From the NCBI RefSeq assembly GCF_000172795.2, contig NZ_CP020947.1, positions 1,491,001-1,555,000 of the forward strand: 64,000 nt of DNA, written 5' to 3'. Position numbers and translations under genes: made by a program. The DNA is from Rhizobium sp. CIAT894. Its GTDB lineage: Bacteria > Pseudomonadota > Alphaproteobacteria > Rhizobiales > Rhizobiaceae. Positions 10,586 through 11,893 of this stretch are shown in pieces (the stretch's first letter is position 1; the number at the start of each line of letters is the position of its first letter). The notes below the pieces were generated by a model, which was given only the letters and a program-made list of their open reading frames with translations, was not told where the DNA came from and searched no databases.

Positions 10586-11893
10586 ATGAGCATTACGCCG
10601 GATGACGAGCGTTTCATGGCGGCGGCGATCCGCCTGTCGCGCCGGCATCTCGGCCGCACTGCCACCAACCCCTCCGTCGGTTGTCTGATTGTCAAGGACA
10701 GCGTCGTCGTCGGCCAGGCGGTCACTGCCGTCGGCGGCCGCCCGCATGCCGAACCGCAGGCGCTCGCGGAAGCCGGGGAGGCTGCCCGCGGGGCCACCGC
10801 CTATGTGACGCTCGAACCCTGCTCGCATCACGGCAAGACGCCGCCCTGCGCCGAGGCGCTGATCGCCTATGGCGTCGCCCGGGTCGTCATCAGCGTCACC
10901 GATCCCGATCCGCGCGTCTCCGGCCGCGGCATTGCCATGCTGCGCGAGGCCGGCATAGAAGTGGATGCCGGCGTACTGGAGGCGGAGGGCCGGCGTTCGC
11001 TGGCCGCCTATCTCACCCGCCAGACGAAGAACCGGCCTTATGTGACTCTCAAACTTGCCGTTTCGGCCGATGGCATGATTGGTCGCGAGGGGGAGGGTCA
11101 AGTGGCGATCACCGGCCCGGAGGCCCGCGCCGAGGTTCAGGCGCTACGCGCCGAAACCGACGCGATCCTCGTCGGCATCGGCACGGCGATATCGGATGAT
11201 CCGCTGCTGACGGTGCGGACACCAGGTCTGGAGGCGCAGTCGCCGATCCGGATTGTGCTCGATCCGTCTTTGGCGTTGCCGCTGACGAGCAGGCTGGTCG
11301 CGACGGCGCGCGAAGTGCCGGTGATCTTGGTTGCAAGTGAAGAGATTTCGCCGTTAGGCTCAGAGGAAGGGTCACCCCCCTCTGTCCTGCCGGACATCTC
11401 CCCCACAAGGGGGGAGATCGGCAAGAGGCGCGATCCGAATTTTCAAGGCAGCGGGTCGCCGTTCGCAACGGAAGATGTAGGGCAGGGAGCTACCTCCCAG
11501 CCAATCTCCCCACCTGTGGGGGAGATGCCCGGCAGGGCAGAGGGGGGCGCCTCGTCCATTGACGCAGCCGACGCAGCCGCTCGCCGCGCCGCCTTCGAAG
11601 CCGCGGGTGTCGAGATCGTCTACTGCAATCCCTATCACCCGGAAGTCCTGCTACCGGCCTTGGCAACACGCGGCATTTCCTCGCTTCTGGTCGAAGGCGG
11701 CGCCAAGACGGCGCGGCTTTTCCTCGAAGCCGGCCTTGTCGATCGCATCCACCTTTACCAGGCGCCTGTCGTCATCGGCGAAGGCGGTATTGAATCCCCG
11801 CTCGATGCAACCGACATACCATCCGGTTTTACCCACATGGGCACGCAGATGTTCGGCGTTGATCGCCTGGACGAATATGAAAGAGAGAATTGA
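10586..11893 (+). CDS. ribD: Bifunctional riboflavin deaminase/reductase RibD with an in-frame repeat insertion
   Basis: 435 residues, about 50-60 more than usual. The N-terminal deaminase has its zinc site in GRPHAEPQAL (H54, E56) and PCSHHGKTPPC (C79, C88); the C-terminal reductase has VTLKLAVSADGMIG (154-167) and SSLLVEGGAKTARLF near 370. It makes 5-amino-6-ribitylamino-uracil phosphate for riboflavin. The extra residues, about 262-322, are encoded by a RIME-like palindromic element (11371-11552) that keeps the frame open. Low-complexity Gly/Pro/Ser sequence there suggests a surface loop. Activity is probably retained because both domains look intact. Confidence 0.93.
   Translation: MSITPDDERFMAAAIRLSRRHLGRTATNPSVGCLIVKDSVVVGQAVTAVGGRPHAEPQALAEAGEAARGATAYVTLEPCSHHGKTPPCAEALIAYGVARVVISVTDPDPRVSGRGIAMLREAGIEVDAGVLEAEGRRSLAAYLTRQTKNRPYVTLKLAVSADGMIGREGEGQVAITGPEARAEVQALRAETDAILVGIGTAISDDPLLTVRTPGLEAQSPIRIVLDPSLALPLTSRLVATAREVPVILVASEEISPLGSEEGSPPSVLPDISPTRGEIGKRRDPNFQGSGSPFATEDVGQGATSQPISPPVGEMPGRAEGGASSIDAADAAARRAAFEAAGVEIVYCNPYHPEVLLPALATRGISSLLVEGGAKTARLFLEAGLVDRIHLYQAPVVIGEGGIESPLDATDIPSGFTHMGTQMFGVDRLDEYEREN
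11371..11552. repeat. RIME-like palindromic element inside ribD
   Basis: Two arms of about 52 nt (11371-11422 and 11500-11552) are near-perfect reverse complements of each other, with only a handful of mismatches, and each contains its own smaller hairpin (cccccacaagggggg; cccacctgtggg). This is the structure of the rhizobial intergenic mosaic element RIME1. The 77 nt between the arms belong to no other pattern I see. It is entirely within coding sequence and in frame. Confidence 0.88.

Follow-up and report, generated by a model that had tools for sequence, protein, structure and literature searches.

Positions 11375 to 11548 of the window (the whole 64,000-nucleotide stretch of Rhizobium sp. 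CIAT894 DNA that we analyzed) are one copy of a dispersed inverted-repeat element, and this copy is read through by an intact RibD. The insertion at ribD is old and common to many species, and FtsY and CobN carry the same element in frame; these results go beyond the earlier note, which had proposed a palindromic element inserted in frame inside ribD. Taken as a whole, the observations probably reflect an old insertion of a dispersed element whose peptide is tolerated as a loop, which has been lost repeatedly and in frame, and whose arms are maintained regardless of the reading frame.

The ribD gene (10586..11893, plus strand), identified as an open reading frame with a profile match, encodes a bifunctional deaminase/reductase of 435 amino acids whose frame is intact with the insert in place. 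It matches TIGR00326 at 300 bits, with the match split over two stretches. From the length gap to insert-free alleles, we placed the insert at 11372..11551 (plus strand), which corresponds to ~58 to 60 codons and to residues ~263 to 322; in 12 pairs compared, the allele without the insert was shorter by 150 to 216 nt, and by 174 to 183 nt in 7 of them. The proposal of a palindromic element that adds about 60 residues to RibD without breaking the frame is borne out, as the inverted arms were found and the 435-amino-acid reading frame is open throughout. On the plus strand, the element consists of a left arm (11375..11422, 48 nt) encoding PPSVLPDISPTRGEIG, a spacer (11423..11500; 78 nt, 26 codons) that is near-neutral as protein, and a right arm (11501..11548, 48 nt) encoding PISPPVGEMPGRAEGG, all translated in a single open frame. 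When extended to 11360-11422 and 11500-11562, the arms are 63 nt long and 83% complementary, with 77 nt between them. Two inverted arms are thus present as claimed, but their length is 48 to 63 nt and not the ~52 nt first given. The element folds as RNA at -138.2 kcal/mol (z -10.2), and none of 200 shuffles was equally stable. Each arm is made up of two small palindromes, which in the left arm are TGTCC-TGCC-GGACA and TCTCCCCC-ACAAG-GGGGGAGA. The former (11383..11396) and the palindrome TGCCC-GGCA-GGGCA in the right arm (11526..11539) form local hairpins in which the middle pair, mostly T-A or C-G, co-varies between species; in this copy the left arm has the T/A form and the right arm the C/G form. 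A short direct repeat, CAGAGG, was read from the sequence in the left flank of the element (11361..11366, plus strand) and again at its right end (11538..11543, plus strand), 177 nt or 59 codons from the left copy. At gathering scores, Rfam matched tRNA in the window and nothing else.

Searching the arms against the genome showed that they recur, as the earlier note had expected of a repeat: the element was found at 28 or more places in its own genome (6.66 Mb; 62 search rows, clustered by hand), a lower bound, as the search scored 40 of 51 first-look candidates. A 24-base arm tip gave 35 matches in this genome at up to 3 mismatches and was present in 136 of 148 genomes of the genus, while its control gave 0 matches in the own genome and in each of the others. 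Both arms were present at 18 of the 26 other own-genome loci examined, 17 of them spanning 145 to 203 bp and one being a spacerless 62-bp form. The element also matched 181 plasmid records (Rhizobium, 71; Sinorhizobium, 70; Shinella, 10; and others). Among the 60 plasmid matches listed, 8 were in unannotated records and 52 in annotated ones, and none of the 52 lay over an annotated feature in what is an incomplete gene table. By eye, the copies at 26 of the 27 non-ribD places in the genome, save those in CobN and FtsY, are located between genes or precede likely starts; many open reading frames span own-genome copies, and the protein family search was limited to CobN and FtsY. Outside the coding cases, then, the repeat looks intergenic, and it may have been mobile. 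In-frame use would be easy: of the frames read in 16 copies from the own genome that we judged intergenic, 188 of 192 for single arms and 46 of 96 for the whole element had no stop.

The ribD gene was present in all 148 genomes of the genus, and the RibD loop was readable in 146 of them, the two omitted being L111, whose insert contains an ambiguous base, and L153, which runs into a contig end. When these related RibDs were aligned, the insert proved far from universal: it was full in 59, partial in 6, and missing from 81, including all 12 genomes without an arm-tip match (one of which, G013, has one exact match to a 20-base arm piece). When we mapped insert state onto a tree built from the ribD flanks, at least 16 changes were needed over 146 rows, 11 of them forced by well-supported branches. 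The 64-row clade around the window, in a tree whose bootstrap is not fully settled, accounts for at least 12 changes, 10 of them forced. State was weakly clustered in clade A, where 20 to 32 of 500 shuffles were as low. Because such counts are blind to gain versus loss, we took direction from scars. The motif GAGGGG, the right end of the element, is kept in 11 of the 16 empty alleles of the 64-row clade (some of these 11 being close kin) versus 0 of 65 other empty alleles; it is missing in 5 of the 16. Of the 54 full alleles with a located left end, 49 have GAGG in the 22 nt upstream of it. Judged by these motifs, many empty alleles in the 64-row clade look like in-frame deletions, and since the CAGAGG copies are 59 codons apart, a deletion between them would stay in frame. 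By eye, the scarless alleles L109 and L110 resemble eroded inserts. Some full inserts carry additional sequence: the left arm is longer by ~12 codons (DYRGRATGLDPSF..) in ribD of L040, L048, L051, L056, L064, L065, and L087, and the right arm is extended by GGE.R.GEAG.IDPV.. in ribD of L067, L070, L086, L087, and L089. These extensions are a second insertion layer inside an arm.

We then compared synonymous (pS) and nonsynonymous (pN) change in the arms, the spacer, and the rest of ribD, using limits set beforehand: the arm figures exclude those 13 of the 59 full inserts that have arm indels or extensions, and spacer pairs below 60% identity were excluded. In clade A (30 rows), pS and pN were 0.091 and 0.076 in the arms and 0.354 and 0.056 in the flank, giving dN/dS values of 0.82 for the arms and 0.12 for the flank. 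In clade B (8 rows), arm pS was 0.019 versus 0.305 in the flank. Synonymous change in the arms is therefore ~4-fold (clade A) and ~16-fold (clade B) lower than in the rest of ribD, and in neither clade was any of the 285 flank windows of 16 codons as low as either arm. For clade A, third-position G+C came to 0.753 in the flank, compared with 0.858 in the left arm and 0.752 in the right. The spacer behaved differently, with a pS of 0.336 and a pN of 0.252 in clade A (180 pairs; flank pS, 0.349, and pN in the same pairs, 0.056) and a pS of 0.377 and a pN of 0.285 in clade B (27 pairs; flank pS, 0.303, and pN, 0.038). The five rows of clade C showed the opposite trend, with a higher pS in the arms (0.210) than in the flank (0.103). 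For clades A and B, this pattern of substitutions suggests that the arms are held as nucleic acid and that protein sequence is held in neither the arms nor the spacer.

Covariation among 41 distinct rows (46 alleles from all clades) was assessed against 500 shuffles. The observed local pairing and double changes were reached by 3 and 1 of 500 shuffles in the left arm and by none in the right arm; changes on both sides were confined to one left-arm pair and two right-arm pairs, and in each arm the central pair of the local hairpin switches from T-A to C-G. Between the arms, the percentage paired was matched by 168 of 500 shuffles and the double changes (10 pairs) by none, so that one long cruciform as the conserved structure has pairing no better than shuffles and double changes that are better. 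These comparisons favor, without proving, the local hairpins, although their lead over long-range pairing is not clear. The two arms also differ in form: of the 59 full ribD alleles, 41 have a T-A left arm and 47 a C-G right arm. With the forms of other copies in the same genomes counted by exact 20-mers, the left arm was T/A in 36 of 46 countable alleles versus 14.4 expected, and the right arm in 9 of 52 versus 16.9 expected.

If young copies of a conserved element had inserted separately in each species, the arms would simply be too young to have diverged, and two observations suit this: the family is widespread, and the spacers of clade B and L075 are of a different type that resembles the own-genome copy L014 and not clade A. 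Against it, 631 of 870 ordered pairs of clade A spacers are alignable at E 0.01, and the spacers have accumulated synonymous change comparable to that of the flank in clade A and above it in clade B. Recent insertions as the cause of low arm divergence in ribD are thus already contradicted for clades A and B, and we consider them very improbable. Clade A spacers align to each other and to none of 16 own-genome spacers at E 0.01, and this leads us to read the clade A insert, from spacer similarity, as a single old insertion. Spacer links to other clades are weak (4 of 300 ordered pairs in both directions for A-C; 4 of 120 for A-D). The second spacer type in clade B and L075 indicates that the loop was entered at least twice or that the spacer was exchanged. 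A single insertion common to all carriers, which we had first drawn from the asymmetry of T/A-left and C/G-right forms, was dropped because the clade B and L075 spacers differ.

A different account of arm uniformity is gene conversion, in which recombination with other genomic copies would keep the arms uniform and the consensus would be set by the mobile family. Arm deviation does fall as genome copy number rises (rho -0.44, P 0.0005, n=59, with kinship ignored; in clade A, rho -0.26, P 0.10, n=42, and -0.36, P 0.037, n=34, also ignoring kinship), a correlation that is expected under homogenization too, and clade B, with the top match counts (51 to 108), has the steadiest arms, while clade C (3 to 14) has the least steady. 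However, the excess of T/A left arms over the expectation from their own genomes argues against free gene conversion, as do the deficit of T/A right arms and the lack of any match at E 0.01 between clade A spacers and the 16 spacers from the genome of the window. We regard gene conversion as possible but doubtful. The likelier cause may be that the hairpins are subject to purifying selection or biased repair, a view to which we would give about even chances; we prefer it because the arms keep ribD-specific forms and not the forms common elsewhere in the genome. An element that has been lost about a dozen times would nevertheless be an odd target for purifying selection.

For the protein, we examined an AlphaFold2 model of RibD built from 35 sequences (mean pLDDT, 73). 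Ten-residue blocks over residues 261 to 320 had mean pLDDT values of 26 to 30, other weak stretches being residues 159 to 173 and 397 to 403, and the model places the insert between a strand (246 to 250) and a helix (327 to 339). Its best structural matches were RibD/RibG structures, with TM scores of 0.55 to 0.63 by query length. PDB entries 8dq9, 8dqb, and 8dqc match RibD by sequence or fold and are named 3-dehydroquinate dehydratase I, which is probably a naming slip. In the predicted structure the insert looks like a disordered loop, and it looks tolerated rather than used. The opposite possibility, that the insert is a functional protein module retained for its peptide, can draw on the retention of the full insert in 59 of 146 genomes and on a similar peptide, PPSVLPDISP..GEMxGRxEGG, that occurs mostly in the same frame in CobN and FtsY. 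The high spacer pN and arm dN/dS of clade A, the repeated loss, the low model confidence, and the ribD of L084, in which the right arm is read in another frame and the frame is restored beyond the insert, make such a module improbable. An assembly error or a decaying pseudogene might be suspected from the two of 148 loci that stop at the ambiguous base in the insert (L111) or at a contig end (L153), but the 146 other loci are open through the loop and the low flank dN/dS of clade A marks purifying selection, and we give this explanation hardly any weight.

Two more coding sequences of this genome carry the element in frame: those of CobN (TIGR02257), with the 62-bp form, and FtsY (TIGR00064). 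We read the CobN loop, which follows GVEEWR, in 110 loci (L226-L255 and L287-L366), namely, the best 30 from the 148 genus genomes and the best 80 from 578 named candidates; the two sets overlap, with several identical loops, and both are biased to loci near the query. By motif, 34 of these loops contain this element, 13 a second palindromic type, and 10 a third, while 45 are short and 8 are other. When folded, three type 2 and three type 3 loops gave long hairpins (no shuffle control). Across species, then, the CobN loop holds one of three palindromic repeat types in frame, or none in some. Carriers include Rhizobium leguminosarum, R. laguerreae, Ensifer, Sinorhizobium fredii, Ciceribacter, and an Agrobacterium. 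Among the 25 of 34 loci that passed a motif and length filter, pS was 0.081 and 0.071 in the CobN arms versus 0.527 in the flank, a low divergence that separate young insertions may explain. The CobN loop looks like a landing pad for palindromes. In FtsY (L181:485-2059, minus strand; also L256-L285), the element lies in the acidic N-terminal part, and 29 of the best 30 loci from 148 genomes had one or both arm motifs at up to 4 substitutions. The left arm seems frame-shifted midway in several FtsY loci (PPSVPSGHLPHKGGDR).

We propose that a rhizobial element, with two inverted arms of two hairpins each and a spacer, would have inserted long ago in a stop-free frame into the loop that joins a strand to a helix in the reductase domain of RibD. 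Its peptide would be a passenger in a disordered surface loop, with selection keeping the frame of the remaining enzyme. The scars suggest that it was repeatedly removed by in-frame deletion, probably by slippage between the CAGAGG copies at its ends, and whatever keeps the arms nearly unchanged in nucleotide sequence would act without regard to the reading frame. More speculatively, and with less confidence, intragenic palindromes of the Rhizobiaceae might be kept as functional nucleic-acid hairpins, such as a binding or processing site, while being translated, with the CobN and RibD loops serving as landing pads colonized in turn by palindrome families.

Several known repeats resemble this element in part. 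Its two hairpins in inverted orientation recall REPIN/RAYT systems. Mobilization by a RAYT was rejected: the own genome has one Y1_Tnp match, its 3.36-kb locus lacks the arm motif (12 bases, up to 2 mismatches), and an NCBIfam scan of that stretch was empty. A copy of the Rhizobium-specific intergenic mosaic elements (RIMEs) is reportedly located at a two-component system beside pckA. In this genome, pckA is at C1:39986-41539 and the nearest listed element copy at C1:101325. RIMEs are described as intergenic rhizobial repeats with conserved sequence and secondary structure (Osteras et al. 1995; PMC2573895). Compared with that description alone, our element is likewise dispersed, mostly intergenic-looking in rhizobia, and built of palindromic modules, whereas its ribD copy is coding. 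Intragenic GTAG/CGTC REP elements are reported as small hairpins, often dimers, within open reading frames of known genes in several species (PMC3733652); by eye, we noticed no GTAG/CGTC tag at the arm ends. ERIC and Correia elements are described as short, non-autonomous, and fused to genes through open frames (PMC2229807); their hosts, Enterobacteria and Neisseria, are different, and the likeness lies in the description. In-frame palindromes as such are already known from Rickettsia palindromic elements, ERIC, Correia, and intragenic REPs (PMC2229807, PMC10969869, PMC3733652). Within the open-access literature that our search covered, we found no report of them in Rhizobiaceae, and none of the open-access papers searched prints the fragments of arm or peptide that we looked for. 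Novelty seems to lie in the host family, the genes, the in-frame losses that leave scars, the three palindrome types of the CobN loop, and an arm conservation that ignores the frame.

The earlier note had likened the insert to Rickettsia palindromic elements, and in-frame insertion in RibD, CobN, and FtsY supports this likeness in how the element works; we do not claim membership. Those elements are described as palindromic repeats of 105 to 146 bp lying in frame in protein genes, each with an open frame (PMC2229807), and a guanylate kinase that carries one is reported to remain active (PMC2229807, PMC10969869; Ogata et al. 2000, 2002). In both systems the host is an alphaproteobacterium, and palindromes sit in frame within conserved protein-coding genes. 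Unlike the Rickettsia elements as described there, the rhizobial one belongs to a different host family, has arms conserved at synonymous sites, leaves scarred in-frame losses, and has own-genome copies that look mostly intergenic. Rickettsia provides the best-known protein-coding palindromes, and REP, ERIC, and Correia elements contribute scattered cases; in the present work such palindromes occur in conserved genes for riboflavin, cobalamin, and membrane targeting. The hosts are Rhizobiaceae that are free-living and culturable, and many natural alleles exist both with the insert and without it. From the synonymous-site result, it becomes testable whether such repeats are passengers or hairpins with a job that overrides the protein code.
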